From assembly GCA_003134855.1 (NCBI GenBank), contig PLCS01000014.1, positions 62,338 to 126,337 on the forward strand: DNA of 64,000 nt, in the 5' to 3' direction. This DNA comes from Acidobacteriaceae bacterium (lineage in GTDB: Bacteria; Acidobacteriota; Terriglobia; Terriglobales; Acidobacteriaceae). Positions 55,331 to 64,000 of this stretch are shown here, one piece after another. The notes under the pieces were generated by a model, which worked only from the letters and a program-made list of their open reading frames with translations, made no database searches and was not told the origin of the DNA. Each line of letters begins with the position of its first letter. Position 1 is the first letter of the stretch. The translations under genes and the position numbers were made by a program.

Positions 55331-55404
55331 TGGCTGCCCACCAGGGATTCGAACCCCAATATGCTGCTCCAGAGGCAGCTGTCCTACCATTGAACGAGTG
55401 GGCA
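55331..55404 (-). tRNA. tRNA-Gln (anticodon CTG)
   Basis: 74 bases read on the minus strand: acceptor TGCCCAC pairs exactly with GTGGGCA; D-arm GTTC-GGAC; anticodon stem GCTGC/GCAGC enclosing CTCTGGA (anticodon CTG); T-arm GGGGTTCGAATCCC; discriminator G and an encoded CCA. Read right to left from 55404 to 55331. Lies in the gap between the HtrA gene and dxs. Confidence 0.93.
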
Positions 55405-57480: not shown

Positions 57481-57658
57481 CGTCTTCCTTCCCCGGAAAA
57501 GTGCCGGGCAGTCCAGCAATATCGCACGGAAGCCAGGTCCAGGCAAACCAGCATCGCCAACAGATAGTATACCAACGCGGCGGATTCGATCATCAAAAGA
57601 CGGAGTTGCTTTTTGCGGGATTACAGGCTATATTACCGGTTATAGATTGGAGGCGGTC

Positions 57659-57958
57659 ATGGGCAGCACCTCTCAAACGCGCGCATTGAAGAATTACCGC
57701 AAACGCCTCTATCTGCGCGGAATGGCTCGGTTTGAGGTTCTGGGGCTTGATTCTGACCGTGAACTGATCCGTTCGCTGGCCCGAAAGCTAGCCGATAATA
57801 GCCCGGAGGCCACAGCGATTCGCGCTTCCATGCGGCAGGTATCATCGCAACCACTCAAGAAAGGGGGAATTCTGGCCGCGCTGCGCCGTTCGCCCTTGGT
57901 CGGAGCCGATCTTAACCTCACTCGGCCACGGATCGATGGCCGGAAGGTTGAACTGTGA
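57659..57958 (+). CDS. Antitoxin partner of a PIN-domain toxin
   Basis: 99-residue protein encoded immediately before a VapC-type gene. The N-terminal half is helical and basic (RKRLYLRGMARFEVLGLD, SDRELIRSLARKLA), the C-terminal half contains KKGGILAALRRSPLVGADLNLTRPRIDGRKVEL. This layout is a family of small antitoxins found with FitB/VapC-like PIN toxins rather than a classical ribbon-helix-helix VapB. GGAGGCGG stands just before the ATG at 57659. Stop overlaps the toxin start GTG by two bases. Confidence 0.8.
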   Translation: MGSTSQTRALKNYRKRLYLRGMARFEVLGLDSDRELIRSLARKLADNSPEATAIRASMRQVSSQPLKKGGILAALRRSPLVGADLNLTRPRIDGRKVEL

Positions 57959-58386
57959 CCCGCTACCTTCTCGACACCAACATCATCAGCAACGTAACCA
58001 AGCCTGCGCCGTCCGAATTGCTCCTCGCATGGATGTCGGAGCAGACCGACGAGAATCTCTTTATCGCATCTCTGGTGGTTGCCGAAATCTGGTTTGGAGT
58101 GCTGGGCAGTCCGGCCGGAAAGAAACGCACTCAGTTGGAGAGCTGGTTTGCCGGACCCGATGGGCCGCAATCGTTGTTTGCCGGCCGTGTTCTCCCCTTC
58201 GATGAGAAGGCCAGCCTGGTTTGGGCGCGACTGATGGCCGAAGGCGCAAGAGCCGGACGCCCACGCAGCGCGCTGGACATGATCCTTGCCGCCGTCGCCG
58301 AAGCCAACGATTGTATTGTTGTCACCGACAACGAAAAGGATTTTGCCGGCCTCCAGTTCATCAACCCCATGCGCTTCAAATCCTGA
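57955..58386 (+). CDS. vapC: PIN-domain ribonuclease toxin (VapC/FitB-like)
   Basis: 143-residue PIN nuclease. The four acidic active-site residues are visible: D7 (YLLDTN), E44 (VVAEIWFG), D108 (SALDMILAA) and D125 (IVVTDNEKDF). It is followed by the typical LQFINPMRF strand. VapC toxins cleave tRNA or rRNA and are held inactive by their antitoxin. GTG start overlaps the antitoxin stop (GTGA), giving coupled translation. Full length, so likely functional. Its 3' end borders the duplicated diguanylate-cyclase segment. Confidence 0.93.
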   Translation: MTRYLLDTNIISNVTKPAPSELLLAWMSEQTDENLFIASLVVAEIWFGVLGSPAGKKRTQLESWFAGPDGPQSLFAGRVLPFDEKASLVWARLMAEGARAGRPRSALDMILAAVAEANDCIVVTDNEKDFAGLQFINPMRFKS

Positions 58387-58552
58387 GCAATATCCGTACT
58401 TTCTGGTCTCAAATCCTGGATCTGGAGTACAGAGTGCACGGCTGGTCCGCCAAAAGTGTATTCTTCAAGCCAGAGTATGAGATTCGCAATTCTCGCCGAT
58501 AAGTACTCTCAGGAACCAATTAGCACGGTTGCCGGTTGGCCTGTGCTCCCCG

Positions 58553-60820
58553 ATGAAGAAACTGATTCCCATCTTCGCGATCCTTCTCGGCTGGGCCGCG
58601 GCTGCCTGGGCAGCGCCGCCCGGCACGCTGACCACTCTGCGCGCCATCTCCAGCCTCAGCAAAGTCGAGGCCAGCAAGGGTCTTCCGGTCACCTTCGAAG
58701 GAACGGTCACTTACTACCGCGGGTATGAACATCAGCTGTTTGTGCAGGATGGCGACCTCGCCGTTTTTGTACTCGCCACCGTAGACACCAAACTGGTCCC
58801 CGGCGATCGCGTCCTGGTCAAAGGAACGACGCGTGAGAGCTTTCACGCCATCGCCGTGAGTCAGGACGTGACTGTGCTCCACCATGGCGCCCTGCCTAGC
58901 CCTATTCCCGCCAACTTCGGCGATCTGATCCTCGGGCAGCACGACTGCGTACTGGTCAAAATGCGCGGCGTAATTCGCGCCGCCGATCTGGTCTGGAGTT
59001 CGCAGGCTCCCGTTCGCAGCGCCACTCTGCAGGTGCTCACCGACGGAGGCTATATTGAGGCGGTCCTGGACAGCGACAATCAGAAGGCGCTGAATAACCT
59101 GCTGGACGATGAAGTGGAGATCATCGGGGCAGCCGGCGGGGAATTTGATGACAAGATGCAGCAGACCGGCATTGTGCTCCATGTTTCCACGTGGGCAAAC
59201 ATTAAAATCCTCAAGCGCGCCAATAAGAATTTATGGGATCTTCCTGTCACGCCCATGCACCGGATTATGGGCGGCTATCGCGTCCAGGATTTCACATCGA
59301 GAATCAGAGTTCAGGGCGTCATCACCTACTACCAGCCTGGTTCGGCGGTCGTGCTGCAGGACGGCGGCAGGAGCCTTTGGATCAGGACCAATGCCGACAT
59401 CCCCCTGCGCATCGGCGACCTGGCCGACGCAACGGGTTTTCCCGAAGTCTTGGTTACCGATCTGGCGCGGAGCGCGAACGATGGCTTTTTTACACTCACT
59501 CACAGCGAAATCAAAGATAGCGGCGTGCAGGCGCCGATCGCGCCACTCCACGTGACCTGGCAGCAACTGGCGGTGAGCGGCGACCTGGGTGTTGGGCACC
59601 ACTTCGATCTGGTATCCATCGACGCAGAGGTCGCAGTGCAGGAGCGCGGGGGCGCACAGGACGAATATACGCTGGTCGCGGATGGGCACACTTTCTCAGC
59701 CATCTATCGGCATCCAAGCGGTTCGCTGACGGAGATGAAGCAGTTTCCGCTGGGTTCAAGGGTGCGCGTAACCGGAATCTGCACCGTCCACAATTCCAAC
59801 CCATTCGGCGGTCCGGTGCCCTTCGATATTCTGTTGCGCTCCTTCGACGACATTGAAGTCATCAAGGGCCCCTCCTTGCTGAACATTCGCAATCTGGTGC
59901 TCCTCGTCTGCTTGCTGCTCGCGATCGTGGCCGTAGTCGGCGGCTGGGGATGGAAGCTTGAGAACAAGGTTCGCCGGCAGACGGTCGCCTTGGCGGCCCT
60001 GGAACGCCGGCGCAGCCGCATCCTCGTAGACATCAACGGATCGCGGCCACTGGCGGAGATCCTCGAAAAGATCGTGGGGATGGTCTCCTCGATGCTGGAT
60101 GGGGCGCCCTGCTGGTGCGAGCTCGCCAATGGAACGACGGTGGGGAATTGTGCTCGGGAGCCGCACAGCCTGGAGATCGTCCGCGCGAAGATCGATGCAC
60201 GATCCGGTCCGGCGCTGGGAGCGCTGCTGGCCGCGTTTCGTCCGGAGTATCGTCCGGTAGCACGTAGAACAGAGGCGCTTGCCGACGGGGTGCGGCTGGC
60301 CACCCTGGCCATCGAAACGCGGCGGCTCTACAGCGACCTGCGGCATCGCTCGGAGTTCGATCTGCTCACCGAGATGCCCAACCGCTTCGCGATGGACAAG
60401 CGGCTTGACCTCCTTCTTGAAGAGGCGCGCCAGAACTCCGGTATCTTCGGGTTGATCTACATCGACCTCGACGAGTTCAAACAGGTTAATGACCGCTACG
60501 GCCACCGCATTGGAGACCTTTACCTCCAGGAGGTGGCCGTGCGCATGACGCGGCAGTTGCGCGGAGGAGATATGCTGGCCCGGCTGGGCGGCGACGAATT
60601 CGCCGCACTGGTTTCAGTCGTCCATAGCCGCTCCGATGTGGAAGAGGCCGCCCATCGCCTGCAACGATGCTTCGACGCTCCGTTTGCCGTGGAGGACTGC
60701 TCGCTGCACGGCGCGGCGAGCATCGGTATTGCTCTCTACCCGGAGGACGGCCACACAAAAGACAGCCTGTTGAGCGTCGCCGATGCCGCCATGTACGCTG
60801 TGAAAAACAGCAAACGGTAA
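58553..60820 (+). CDS. Diguanylate cyclase with repeated OB-like periplasmic modules, copy 1
   Basis: 755-residue membrane-bound GGDEF enzyme that makes c-di-GMP. Signal peptide (1-20), a large periplasmic part (~21-440), one transmembrane helix (~446-467, RNLVLLVCLLLAIVAVVGG), a coiled coil, a GAF-like region (~490-590), then the GGDEF domain: GGDEF at 679-683 intact and the inhibitory I-site R670-G-G-D673 five residues ahead. The periplasmic part shows at least three beta modules with the same pattern (V-x-x-Y-Y..L-F-V-Q-D-G-D; VITYYQPGSAVVLQDGG; EYTLVADG...GSRVRVTGI), reminiscent of OB folds. ATG at 58553 sits at the signal peptide. The second copy follows. Confidence 0.88.
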   Translation: MKKLIPIFAILLGWAAAAWAAPPGTLTTLRAISSLSKVEASKGLPVTFEGTVTYYRGYEHQLFVQDGDLAVFVLATVDTKLVPGDRVLVKGTTRESFHAIAVSQDVTVLHHGALPSPIPANFGDLILGQHDCVLVKMRGVIRAADLVWSSQAPVRSATLQVLTDGGYIEAVLDSDNQKALNNLLDDEVEIIGAAGGEFDDKMQQTGIVLHVSTWANIKILKRANKNLWDLPVTPMHRIMGGYRVQDFTSRIRVQGVITYYQPGSAVVLQDGGRSLWIRTNADIPLRIGDLADATGFPEVLVTDLARSANDGFFTLTHSEIKDSGVQAPIAPLHVTWQQLAVSGDLGVGHHFDLVSIDAEVAVQERGGAQDEYTLVADGHTFSAIYRHPSGSLTEMKQFPLGSRVRVTGICTVHNSNPFGGPVPFDILLRSFDDIEVIKGPSLLNIRNLVLLVCLLLAIVAVVGGWGWKLENKVRRQTVALAALERRRSRILVDINGSRPLAEILEKIVGMVSSMLDGAPCWCELANGTTVGNCAREPHSLEIVRAKIDARSGPALGALLAAFRPEYRPVARRTEALADGVRLATLAIETRRLYSDLRHRSEFDLLTEMPNRFAMDKRLDLLLEEARQNSGIFGLIYIDLDEFKQVNDRYGHRIGDLYLQEVAVRMTRQLRGGDMLARLGGDEFAALVSVVHSRSDVEEAAHRLQRCFDAPFAVEDCSLHGAASIGIALYPEDGHTKDSLLSVADAAMYAVKNSKR

Positions 60821-61251
60821 ACCGAAAAGATATGGTCTCAGCTTCCACTGCGTGCTTTACTTCCCTGCGCGCGTCCATCTCTCAATGTTTACCGCTGCCC
60901 TGCTTCCACTCCGGCCGCCCGCGGCTCCACCAGCACACCGTCAAACAGCGAAGCCGCCAGCAGCCAACCCGCAGCCGCACGCACATGCGCGATGCGGTAG
61001 CCGGTCTGCGCCCACTTCCACTCCAGCGTCGAAGGATTTCACCAGCATCCAATTCATCATGTTCACATAGCACTCCGGTACTTGAGCAGACATCGTGCAA
61101 TCAGGTCTCAATACGGGATCTGAGTTCACGGCGCACGGCTGGTCCGCCAAAAGTGTATTCTTCAAGCAAGATTAAGAGGTTCGCAATTCTCGCCGATAAA
61201 TACTCTCAGGAGCCAAAAAGCGCGGTTGCAGGTTGGCCCGTGCGCCCCTCG
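60821..61251. other. Junction between the duplicated units
   Basis: 431 bases. It holds the stranded 3' part of a beta-propeller gene (60889-61030, minus strand), about 60-100 bases of unmatched sequence at the joint (61031-61100) and the copied leader of the second cyclase (61100-61251). No other gene is supported. Confidence 0.75.
60889..61030 (-). pseudogene. Truncated 3' fragment of the beta-propeller gene
   Basis: About 46 codons plus TAA encode TLEWKWAQTGYRIAHVRAAA and then GWLLAASLFDGVLVEPRAAG, almost identical to the C-terminus of the gene at 63567. No start or upstream part remains; the match stops at 61030. Stranded copy made by the tandem duplication. Confidence 0.85.
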
Positions 61252-63510
61252 ATGAAGAAACTGATTCCCATCTTCGCGATCCTTCTCGGCTGGGCCGCAG
61301 CTGCCTGGGCAGCGCCGCCCGGCCCGCTGACCACTCTGCGCCAGATTCACGCCCTTTCTAATGGCGAGGGCAACCGGGGGTATCCTGTCGCCTTCGAGGC
61401 AACGGTAACCTACAGCCGCACGGATGAAAACATTCTTTTTGCCCAGGATGAGGATGTAGCCGTTTTCGTCCTGATCGCGGCGGATGCCAAACTTCTACTC
61501 CCCGGAGACCGCGTACAGATCAAAGGAAAAACTTCGGGCAGCTTCAACCCTATCGTGATCCCCGACAGCATCACGGTGCTTCATCACGGCGCCCTGCCGA
61601 GGGCCGTTCCGGCTACTTTCGAGCAACTGATCAAGGCACAATACGATTGCCGGTTGGTTTCCGTGCGGGGCATGGTCCGCTCCGCGGACGTGAGGTCTGC
61701 TGGAAACGGGTCGTCACGCCGCGGCCAGCTTCAGATGGTGACCGAATCGGGTCCCGTCGAGGTGAATCTGGACACTGACGATGCCAACGTGCTCAGCACT
61801 TTGCTGGACACGGAGGTTGAGATTACCGGGGCCTCCGCTGGCAAGTTCGACGACAAAATGCAGTTGACCGGTACCGTGCTCTATGTTCCATCCATGGCGA
61901 ACGTCAAAATTCTCGCACGCCCCGGCAAAAGCCCATGGTCCGTATCGATCACTCCTCTAGACAAGATTTTTTTGGCCTACAACAAACACGATCTCACCCC
62001 CAGGGTTCGGGTACAGGGAGTCATCACCTATTACCAGCCGGGGCTTGCCATTGTGCTGCAAGACGGCTCAAAGAGCCTGTGGATTGAGACCAATTCCATG
62101 CAACCCCTGCGGATTGGTGATCGCGCGGAGGCGATTGGTTTTACCGAAGAGCGTTACCGGTTTCTCTCCCTGGTCGATGCCGAAGTCCTCGATAGCCACG
62201 TTTTCACACCCATCGTGCCGCGACCGTCGACATGGAAGCAACTGGCCAACTGGAGCGCCAACCAACCCGACGGCCACAGTATAGATCTGGTCTCCATCGA
62301 GGGAACGGTGGCAGCCGAAGTTCGCGAAGACGTGCAGGACGAGTATGTCCTGGTCTCCGATGGACGCTTGTTCACCGCGATCTATCATCATCCGCCCGCA
62401 ACCGGTGCAATTCCACCGATAATGATGATTCCTTTGGGAACCAAAATCCGCGTCACCGGCATCTGCACACGTTCTGTTACCAGATCGGTGAACCCTGGTT
62501 ATGAGGTCGCCTTCGATATTCTGCTGCGAGACTTTGACGACATTACGGTTGTCGCCAAACCATCCATGTTGAACATTCGCAATTTGGTGCTCCTTGTCGT
62601 CTTACTGCTTGTGATCGTGGCCCTGGTAGGCGGCTGGGGATGGAAGCTCGAGCGCAAGGTTCGCCGGCAGACTGCCGCATCGGCGGCTCTGGAACGTCAG
62701 CGCAGCCGCATCCTCGTAGACATCAACGGATCGCGGCCACTGGCCGAGATCCTCGAAAAGATTGTGGGGATGGTCTCCTTGAGGCTGGAGGGCGCGCCCT
62801 GCTGGTGCGAGCTCGCCGATGGAACGACGGTGGGGAATTGTCCTCCCGAGCCGCGCAGCCTGGAGATCGTCCGCGTGAAGATCGACGCGCGATCCGGTCC
62901 GGCGCTGGGAGCGCTGCTGGCCGCGTTTGGCCCTCAGTCTCCGCCGGCCGCGCACAGAACAGAGGCGCTTGCCGACGGGGTGCGGCTGGCCGCCCTGGCC
63001 ATCGAAACCCGGCGGCTCTACTCCGATCTACGCCACCGTTCGGAGTTCGATCTGCTCACCGAGATTCCCAATCGCTTCGCGATGGAGAAGCGGATGGACA
63101 TATTGATTGAAGAGGCGCGCCAGAACTCCGGTATCTTTGGGTTGATCTACATTGACCTCGACCAGTTCAAACCGATCAACGACCGTTACGGCCACCACAT
63201 TGGAGACCTTTATCTCCAGGAGGTGGCCGTGCGCATGAAGCGGCAGTTGCGCGGAGGCGATATGCTGGCCCGGCTGGGCGGCGACGAATTCGCCGCCCTG
63301 GTTTCTGTCGTGCGTAGCCGCGCCGATGTGGAAGAGGCCGCCCATCGCCTGGAACGCTGCTTCGACACTCCGTTTGCCGTGGAGGAGCACTCGCTGTGGG
63401 GTGAGGCAAGCATCGGCATTGCTCTCTACCCGGAGGACGGCCTCACCAAAGACAGCCTGCTGAACGCCGCCGATGCCGCCATGTACGAGGTTAAAAACAG
63501 CAGACGGTAA
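61252..63510 (+). CDS. Diguanylate cyclase with repeated OB-like periplasmic modules, copy 2
   Basis: 752-residue paralogue of the preceding enzyme. Signal peptide identical (MKKLIPIFAILLGWAAAAWA) and the GGDEF part nearly so (GGDEF at 676-680, I-site RGGD nine residues ahead). The periplasmic part is more diverged, for example its first module and the DGSKSLWIETNS stretch, so the copies may sense different ligands. The transmembrane and GAF-like segments correspond closely. The reading frame is open upstream to 60667, but this is the copied leader; the ATG at 61252 is equivalent to that of copy 1. Followed by the intact convergent beta-propeller gene. Confidence 0.88.
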   Translation: MKKLIPIFAILLGWAAAAWAAPPGPLTTLRQIHALSNGEGNRGYPVAFEATVTYSRTDENILFAQDEDVAVFVLIAADAKLLLPGDRVQIKGKTSGSFNPIVIPDSITVLHHGALPRAVPATFEQLIKAQYDCRLVSVRGMVRSADVRSAGNGSSRRGQLQMVTESGPVEVNLDTDDANVLSTLLDTEVEITGASAGKFDDKMQLTGTVLYVPSMANVKILARPGKSPWSVSITPLDKIFLAYNKHDLTPRVRVQGVITYYQPGLAIVLQDGSKSLWIETNSMQPLRIGDRAEAIGFTEERYRFLSLVDAEVLDSHVFTPIVPRPSTWKQLANWSANQPDGHSIDLVSIEGTVAAEVREDVQDEYVLVSDGRLFTAIYHHPPATGAIPPIMMIPLGTKIRVTGICTRSVTRSVNPGYEVAFDILLRDFDDITVVAKPSMLNIRNLVLLVVLLLVIVALVGGWGWKLERKVRRQTAASAALERQRSRILVDINGSRPLAEILEKIVGMVSLRLEGAPCWCELADGTTVGNCPPEPRSLEIVRVKIDARSGPALGALLAAFGPQSPPAAHRTEALADGVRLAALAIETRRLYSDLRHRSEFDLLTEIPNRFAMEKRMDILIEEARQNSGIFGLIYIDLDQFKPINDRYGHHIGDLYLQEVAVRMKRQLRGGDMLARLGGDEFAALVSVVRSRADVEEAAHRLERCFDTPFAVEEHSLWGEASIGIALYPEDGLTKDSLLNAADAAMYEVKNSRR

Positions 63511-63566
63511 ACCGCTGCATACTGATGCAGTGCTTTACTTCCTTACGCGTGTCAATTTCCCGGCGA

Positions 63567-64000
63567 TCATCGCTGTCCTGCTTCCACTCCGGCCGCCCGC
63601 GGCTCCACCAGCACACCATCAAACAGCGAAGCCGCCAGCAGCCGCCCAGCAGCCGCACGCACATGCGCGATTCGATAGCCGGTCTGCGCCCACTTCCACT
63701 CCAGCGTCTGGGTGTCGATCACGTAGATCTGGTCGCTCGCCCGCGAGCTGACAAGAATTTTGCCCAGGCGCGTGTCATAGCTCAACTCGTCCACATCGCC
63801 CAACGGAAAGCGGTGGACCCACATCCACGTGCCGCCCAGGTCGCGCGAGAAGTACACGCCTTCGCGCGCGCCCAGCCATATCGTCCCATCCGCGGAGAAA
63901 GCTACACTATGAATCCGCGTCAGCGTGGCCGGAACCCCCATGAACTTCCAGCTCTGGCCGGCGTCCGTGGAGAGCACCACTTCCTCCTGCTGAACAGCGG
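63567..64000 (-). CDS. BNR/YCF48-like beta-propeller protein, partial (cut by window end)
   Basis: The 3' end of a minus-strand gene that runs off the window; the frame is open to base 64000. The visible ~144 residues contain Asp-box-like repeats (STDAGQSWKFMG, SRDLGGTWMWV, YDTRLGKILVSSR, VIDTQTLEWKW), as in BNR/sialidase-like or YCF48-type propellers. The last 46 residues are duplicated as a fragment at 60889. Role unknown; probably exported. Convergent with the second diguanylate cyclase gene, 56 bases between their stops. Confidence 0.8.
   Translation of the reverse strand, partial: AVQQEEVVLSTDAGQSWKFMGVPATLTRIHSVAFSADGTIWLGAREGVYFSRDLGGTWMWVHRFPLGDVDELSYDTRLGKILVSSRASDQIYVIDTQTLEWKWAQTGYRIAHVRAAAGRLLAASLFDGVLVEPRAAGVEAGQR

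Follow-up and report, generated by a model that had tools for sequence, protein, structure and literature searches.

Paralogous receptors in which the output half is conserved and the input halves have diverged are already known. The clustered paralogs PctA, PctB, and PctC of Pseudomonas aeruginosa are more than 96% identical in their signalling halves and less than 56% identical in their sensory halves, a contrast that the available text of the source ascribes to accelerated sensory evolution together with strict constraint on the signalling domain (PMC6974571). Tlp2, Tlp3, and Tlp4 of Campylobacter jejuni have identical signalling domains and sensory regions that are about 30% identical; trees built separately for each part have different topologies, and domain duplication and divergence are proposed in the available text (PMC9769880). 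Here we consider two neighbouring diguanylate cyclase genes at the end of a 64,000-nucleotide stretch of an Acidobacteriaceae genome (the window; contig PLCS01000014.1, positions 62,338 to 126,337, assembly GCA_003134855.1). Copy 1 (58553–60820, 755 residues) and copy 2 (61252–63510, 752 residues) are both intact open reading frames (ORFs) on the forward strand. The two copies form a mosaic that was produced by recombination, not by fast evolution of the sensor.

A mosaic of two diguanylate cyclases

A preliminary description of this locus had reported identical signal peptides, near-identical GGDEF halves, and diverged periplasmic halves. The first and last of these statements hold: the first 20 codons encode identical protein, with a proportion of synonymous differences (pS) of 0.07, and the sensor (codons 21–444) is only 54% identical in protein. 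"Near-identical" is too strong for the membrane and GGDEF half (codons 445–755), where the two copies agree in 86% of residues and 89% of bases. Along the whole repeated unit, identity is 0.87 upstream of the gene (58425–58552), 0.98 in the first 30 codons, 0.61 in codons 31–444, 0.89 in the membrane and GGDEF half, 0.61 in the short spacer after the stop codon, and 0.94 in a fragment of the neighbouring gene. Uniform divergence along the unit, which the preliminary description had said would count against its tandem history, is therefore not what we observe. A two-breakpoint model of the profile has a likelihood ratio (LR) of 269, compared with a maximum of 17 among 30 shuffles, for which a coarser scanning step was used. 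It places the first border at 58641 (range within 3 log-likelihood units, 58635–58647), at about codons 28–32 and soon after the signal peptide, and the second at 59880 (59871–59886), at about codons 440–445, where the membrane helix starts.

Silent sites show the same step. By the Nei–Gojobori method, the sensor has a pS of 0.615 and a synonymous divergence (dS) of 1.29, whereas the catalytic half has a pS of 0.212 and a dS of 0.25. This fivefold step in dS is accompanied by nearly equal ratios of nonsynonymous to synonymous divergence (dN/dS), 0.30 in the sensor and 0.33 in the catalytic half. Because selected protein change would leave dS level, the contrast between the halves is not due to faster protein change. 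A control pair of orthologs from the same family (G000_C8_793564 and G009_C262_2517) has a pS of 0.19 in both halves, and the gene therefore has no intrinsic dS step. In these names and below, G000 is the genome studied here, G009 is the genome of its sister species, and other G numbers are further genomes compared.

Trees of the two halves were built from a family set of 64 extracted members, of which 55 are longer than 700 residues (58 rows for the sensor, 62 for the catalytic half; quick LG+G4 models; approximately unbiased (AU) tests). Members with fewer than 200 residues in the catalytic half or fewer than 220 in the sensor were left out, as was G023_C525_3226 from the catalytic tree, its frame being broken there; the catalytic tree carries long-branch warnings on rows outside the clade of copy 1, copy 2, and G009_C77. 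In the sensor trees, copy 1 groups with its nearest sensors, G009_C230 and G030_C204_2642, and copy 2 falls elsewhere; the sensor data reject a clade of copies 1 and 2 (AU p 1e-4, difference in log-likelihood (delta lnL) 113). The catalytic data, in contrast, place both copies in one clade with G009_C77 (support 99.9) and reject a clade of copy 1 with G030_C204_2642 (AU p 4e-5, delta lnL 212). Significantly conflicting segment trees and sharp breakpoints in silent divergence are thus found together, as expected of mosaic paralogs. The dS step with equal dN/dS, the sharp borders, and the conflicting half-trees identify the pair as recombinant.

These results bear directly on the explanation offered by the preliminary description, namely a tandem duplication followed by accelerated change of the sensor, perhaps under selection for a new ligand. 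The protein identities alone (54% in the sensor, 86% in the membrane and GGDEF half) invite such an explanation, and the PctA/B/C contrast is explained in this way in the available text of its source (PMC6974571). It fails on silent sites, where the rise in dS (about 1.3 in the sensor versus 0.25) matches that in dN, and it accounts for neither the sharp borders nor the conflicting trees; we give it next to no credence. Selection, for a new ligand or otherwise, is refuted as the cause of the contrast by the raised dS and the equal dN/dS.

Tandem units, their junction, and the order of events

The two units are each about 2.7 kb long and lie head to tail. Unit 1 (58336–61030, forward strand) comprises the 3′ end of a vapC-like gene (58336–58386, which by repeat alignment is the left edge of the repeat), a spacer, copy 1, a second spacer, and the 3′ end of a minus-strand neighbour. 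Unit 2 (61032–63708) comprises a decayed remnant of the vapC 3′ end (61032–61085, forward strand, by repeat alignment), a spacer, copy 2, a spacer, and the 3′ end of the intact neighbour. Flanking sequence is thus common to both units on each side (the vapC end and the neighbour's end), the mark of a tandem. The junction lies at 61031, a single base between the neighbour fragment, which runs to 61030, and the vapC remnant, which begins at 61032; there is little or no microhomology at the join. The fragment (60889–61030, minus strand) consists of 46 codons of a F510_1955/Ycf48-like repeat protein without the 5′ part; 45 of its 46 residues match the C-terminus of the intact neighbour, whose gene ends at 63567, and the DNA is 93.7% identical over 142 bases. 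The preliminary description was right about this fragment and about a head-to-tail repeat that reaches the neighbour's 3′ end. Its figure of about 2.6 kb and its limits must be moved to those given here, and it had overlooked the vapC 3′ end, which explains most of the unassigned stretch before copy 2.

A query spanning the junction (60815–61260) matches in two parts, with bases up to 216 matching the end of the neighbour and bases 218–446 matching the region upstream of the cyclase, the latter both in the same genome (58336 onward) and in G009. In a search that covered 14 genomes outside the genus and 23 of the 36 within it, the intact junction was found in G000 only, and in G009 the piece is present only as two separate halves. 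Two strains or loci merged into a false tandem during assembly would presumably look much the same, given that the copies are diverged. Yet the genome is 99.58% complete in 17 contigs, the locus lies inside a contig of 338,540 bases, both ORFs are intact, and like arrays occur at another locus of this genome and in other genomes; an assembly artefact is very improbable.

We consider it probable that the tandem arose by an illegitimate join and that the whole sensor of copy 2 was replaced by homologous recombination from a divergent relative. The illegitimate join would have taken place inside the vapC-like gene and inside the neighbour, as the junction shows, giving two 2.7-kb units. Homologous recombination, then or earlier, would have swapped the periplasmic sensor of copy 2 (codons ~31–443) for the corresponding part of a distant member of the family, the crossovers falling in two conserved blocks, the signal peptide and the membrane helix. 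The mosaic itself is observed; the direction of the exchange and the donor are what we infer from it. Since G009 has the sensor type of copy 1 at the same locus, the sensor of copy 2 is likely the newcomer, and judged from sequence comparison it is likely an import. The second unit could have arisen in this lineage or could have been brought in as an already diverged allele.

Most likely the tandem dates from about the time when the sister species split off, and the sensor of copy 2 came from an unsampled divergent relative. Between G000 and G009, the dS of dxs is 0.24, the same as that between the catalytic halves of copies 1 and 2. Silent differences in the neighbour fragment (7 of 39 sites) and the catalytic half (50 of 237) give equal pS, and one event can therefore date both; the upstream flank (0.87), the catalytic half (0.89), and the fragment (0.94), all much closer than the sensor (0.61), likewise support dating by one event.

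The main rival holds that the tandem is old, that its sensors have long been separate, and that repeated gene conversion has homogenised the flanks, the signal peptide, and the GGDEF half while sparing the sensor. Gene conversion in an old pair predicts the same mosaic. The first 30 codons, with one silent difference in 25 sites, are even more alike than the catalytic half, though with a p of only 0.06, and three members of an array in G010 are 76–83% identical in their catalytic halves versus 58–62% in their sensors within one genome. However, conversion would need to reach through the spacer on either side of the junction and through the neighbour fragment, which is non-functional. Nor is homogenisation the rule in the family: of 41 members, only 8 have their nearest catalytic relative, and 3 their nearest sensor relative, within their own genome (means of 1.0 and 0.92 after shuffling). 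A sensor of the copy 2 type, moreover, was not found among the G009 members fetched, at a locus that is broken in an assembly of 89% completeness. We regard this history as rather unlikely. The preliminary description had also raised gene conversion at the 3′ half; recombination is borne out, and replacement of a single sensor fits at least as well.

Several observations weigh against the history that we consider probable. No donor of the copy 2 sensor was found, the best match among sampled members being 58%. With six family members used to polarise the catalytic sites, a single derived site is common to copies 1 and 2, as against 11 common to copy 1 and G009 and 8 to copy 2 and G009, and small nucleotide trees of the two parts place copy 1 with G009 at 78 and 76. 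Because of these counts and trees, a simple duplication after the species split does not fit. The spacers after the cyclase stop codons (60821–60888 and 63511–63566) are only 61% identical between flanks that are 89–94% identical. At 58332–58431, the flank of copy 2 is nearer to G009 than is the flank of copy 1 (25 versus 5 sites). The spacer and this flank require extra local events. Around the post-cyclase spacer (60804–60903), G009 agrees with copy 1 (20 versus 6).

These patterns raise the possibility that the second unit was joined from a diverged strain, that is, that two alleles that had diverged about as much as G000 from G009 and bore different sensors were fused in tandem by illegitimate crossover or by integration. 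Such a fusion would be a special case of the history that we favour, not its opposite. It would account for the single derived catalytic site shared between the copies as opposed to the 11 and 8 shared with G009, and for the vapC remnant at 61032–61085, to which the G009 sequence is a closer match than the intact vapC of this window. The neighbour fragment points the same way: by our own polarisation on aligned rows, its branch carries 3 changes (2 silent, 1 not) and that of the intact neighbour 4 silent changes, fewer in the fragment than neutral decay predicts (p 0.047). That p is marginal, however, few sites are counted, and the same pattern would result from a duplication that preceded the split and was followed by loss or non-assembly in G009. 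We regard the joining of alleles as a tentative possibility. Fragment decay was rejected as a clock, with 3 changes on the branch and so marginal a p. Taken together, the flank, spacer, and fragment patterns lean toward joined alleles with local exchanges; comparison of sequences suggests that the tandem is older than the species split, or that diverged alleles were joined, or that G009 carries both copies. In G009, the locus is split over contigs C230 (dxs, vapC remnant, sensor of the copy 1 type) and C77 (neighbour and catalytic half), with a 23-base overlap of the contig ends within the cyclase. This break and overlap would fit either one copy or an unassembled middle.

The surroundings of the tandem add further observations. 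The vapC-like PIN-domain gene (57955–58386, forward strand) matches Pfam PIN at E 1e-12, with NCBIfam VapC models below cutoff, and is overlapped by a small ORF of 103 residues in the antitoxin position (57647–57958, forward strand) for which no Pfam or NCBIfam match was found. This vapBC-like module (57647–58431) is open here; in G009 all that is left of vapC is a 3′ part containing a 4-base gap, and a stretch matching dxs lies about 60 bases away. Upstream of copy 1, the vapC tail resembles neither the G009 sequence nor the remnant at 61032 closely, and local import or replacement of the vapC region (57647–58431) is likely. The intact minus-strand neighbour, of the same F510_1955/Ycf48-like kind as the fragment, is 691 residues long; its 3′ part occupies 63567–64000, the gene continuing beyond the window, and its score against the NCBIfam F510_1955 family is just above the cutoff (178.2 bits versus 175). 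The spacer after copy 2 (63511–63566) holds a small inverted repeat, seen by eye. Against Rfam, the window gives a single match, a tRNA (55334–55404).

The cyclase family across Terracidiphilus

Family members were sought in 60 genomes, 36 from the genus and 24 others, a search in which weaker members may be missing. Matches at E 1e-100 or better occur in at least 32 of the 36 genus genomes (this one included) and, among the matches listed, in none of the 24 others. The genus is Terracidiphilus, as 14,000 bases of contig C73 of G003 are identical to JARLGE010000287.1 of Terracidiphilus sp. MAG_BO331. The genome studied here has four full members, namely this pair and a second tandem pair (C8:793699–798349), plus seven weaker matches. 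Tandem neighbours occur, by our own count within the sequence retrieved, on 12 contigs from 11 genomes. In G010, three members lie in a row (C20:131353–138750) with spacers of about 240 bases. In G023, the catalytic half of one array member (C525:3226–5466) is out of frame with its sensor open, possibly a pseudogene or an assembly error.

Mismatch between the halves is found beyond this pair. Of 1485 pairs of full members, 55 have a pS below 0.5 in at least one half; among these, 26 pairs, which involve 18 members and are not independent, differ between their halves by at least 3 standard errors. The sensor is the more diverged half in 22 of the 26 and the catalytic half in 4, and the LR is largest, at 259 in this survey, for the pair in this window. 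The pairs of G005 and G012 have both halves in step. Exchange between sensors and catalytic halves thus recurs in the genus but is not universal. A breakpoint common to the whole family is not the rule, with a best border at codons 25–35 or 435–450 in only 10 of the 26 strongly mismatched pairs. Genus-wide concerted evolution is likewise weak as a general rule by the nearest-relative test and is not claimed.

The sensor of copy 1 (type A, codons 31–444, 58643–59884, forward strand) has its nearest relatives in G009 at the same locus and in G030 at another. The G030 gene (C204_2642) adjoins genes matching, among the matches listed, the neighbours of the C8 pair, and over the first 8 kb of its contig the DNA match to the dxs locus lies only in the cyclases. 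Because the G030 copy sits at another locus, sensor type A, or the gene bearing it, has moved between loci. Relatives carrying both copies at different loci, which the preliminary description had named as evidence against a tandem duplication, are found to this extent only, that is, for the copy 1 type. The flanking genes of the C8 pair recur beside family arrays in many genus members among the matches listed, and the C8 locus may be the older home of the family. The sensor of copy 2 (type B, 61342–62574, forward strand), the segment proposed to have been exchanged, is at most 58% identical to any sampled sensor.

It is conceivable, if somewhat doubtful, that the sensors of the genus act as exchangeable cassettes that move between catalytic halves, loci, and species by recombination in conserved blocks. 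We have lowered our estimate of this idea because a shared border appears in so few of the mismatched pairs. If it is correct, the repertoire of inputs to cyclic di-GMP (c-di-GMP) signalling would be rebuilt by shuffling rather than by mutation.

Domain architecture and comparison with known systems

Copy 1 consists of a signal peptide, barrels resembling the oligonucleotide/oligosaccharide-binding (OB) fold, a membrane helix (445–473), a coiled coil, and a GGDEF domain. Each copy matches PF00990 at E 2e-40, with an intact GGDEF motif (residue 679 in copy 1, 676 in copy 2) and an intact RGGD I-site (670 and 667). An RxxD inhibitory site five residues ahead of GGDEF is an optional feature of diguanylate cyclases, and GGDEF enzymes are well established as producers of c-di-GMP. 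From these sequence features, each copy should produce c-di-GMP when its OB-barrel sensor answers a periplasmic cue, and the pair would couple two different periplasmic inputs to one c-di-GMP output.

No Pfam model covers the sensor at its cutoff; a sub-threshold match to PF01336 has E 5e-4. AlphaFold models have a predicted local distance difference test score (pLDDT) of 83 for the whole protein and 87 for the sensor alone, which was modelled separately because the fold search with the whole model is dominated by the GGDEF part. In order, the model contains the signal-peptide helix, four barrel-like strand groups, the membrane helix, a small mixed domain, a long helix (569–601), and the GGDEF domain, the barrels being assigned by our own reading of the strand pattern. 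Barrels 1, 2, and 4 have structure matches to OB folds (Z at most 12.8, root mean square deviation 3.0 Å over 101 residues), barrel 3 is called OB-like from the strand pattern alone, and template modelling (TM) scores normalised by the whole sensor are low (at most 0.25 among the matches listed). The sensor is thus modelled as four tandem OB-like periplasmic barrels. Oligonucleotides and oligosaccharides are frequent ligands of OB folds; by analogy, and speculatively, the periplasmic regions (58613–59884 and 61312–62574) might bind extracellular DNA or glycans.

The GGDEF part most resembles that of YfiN/TpbB (DgcN)-type cyclases. Its best NCBIfam match is PRK09966 (E 4e-47, far below that model's cutoff), and the YfiN-type structures 4iob and 7a7e are among its best structure matches (Z 24.8, 1.1–1.2 Å over 151–155 residues), the top match overall being 5m3c (Z 25.8). 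YfiN has a small periplasmic PAS-like domain; the periplasmic part here, in contrast, is predicted to be about 420 residues of OB-like barrels. Single sensor barrels appear in the models to share their fold with the anticodon domain of AsnRS/AspRS, RPA/CST subunits, and HIN domains. Unlike in those proteins, the barrels here are periplasmic, stand several in a row, and belong to a sensor enzyme, and the fold match reveals no ligand.

Among the matches listed in the open-licence literature, no report of recombination at domain borders in diguanylate cyclases was found, nor was a paper on Terracidiphilus c-di-GMP or on Acidobacteriota diguanylate cyclase paralogs. What sets this pair apart is that silent sites, trees, and breakpoints give direct evidence of recombination at the borders between domains, and that the cyclase has a sensor not yet catalogued. 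The breakpoints also mark a natural swap point for chimeric cyclases.

Like PctA/B/C, this pair consists, as far as the available text of that source allows comparison, of clustered paralogous receptors with alike output and diverged input halves, but those receptors have a chemotaxis output and a dCache sensor, and here dS shows recombination; the available text on PctA/B/C gives no dS values. Plotting dS along the gene and building a tree for each half is a simple test that can be transferred to PctA/B/C, Tlp2/3/4, and other receptor families. With Tlp2/3/4 the pair shares conflicting half-trees and a conserved signalling part; unlike it, the Tlp proteins are chemoreceptors with dCache sensors, and recombination is not invoked for them in the available main text (PMC9769880).

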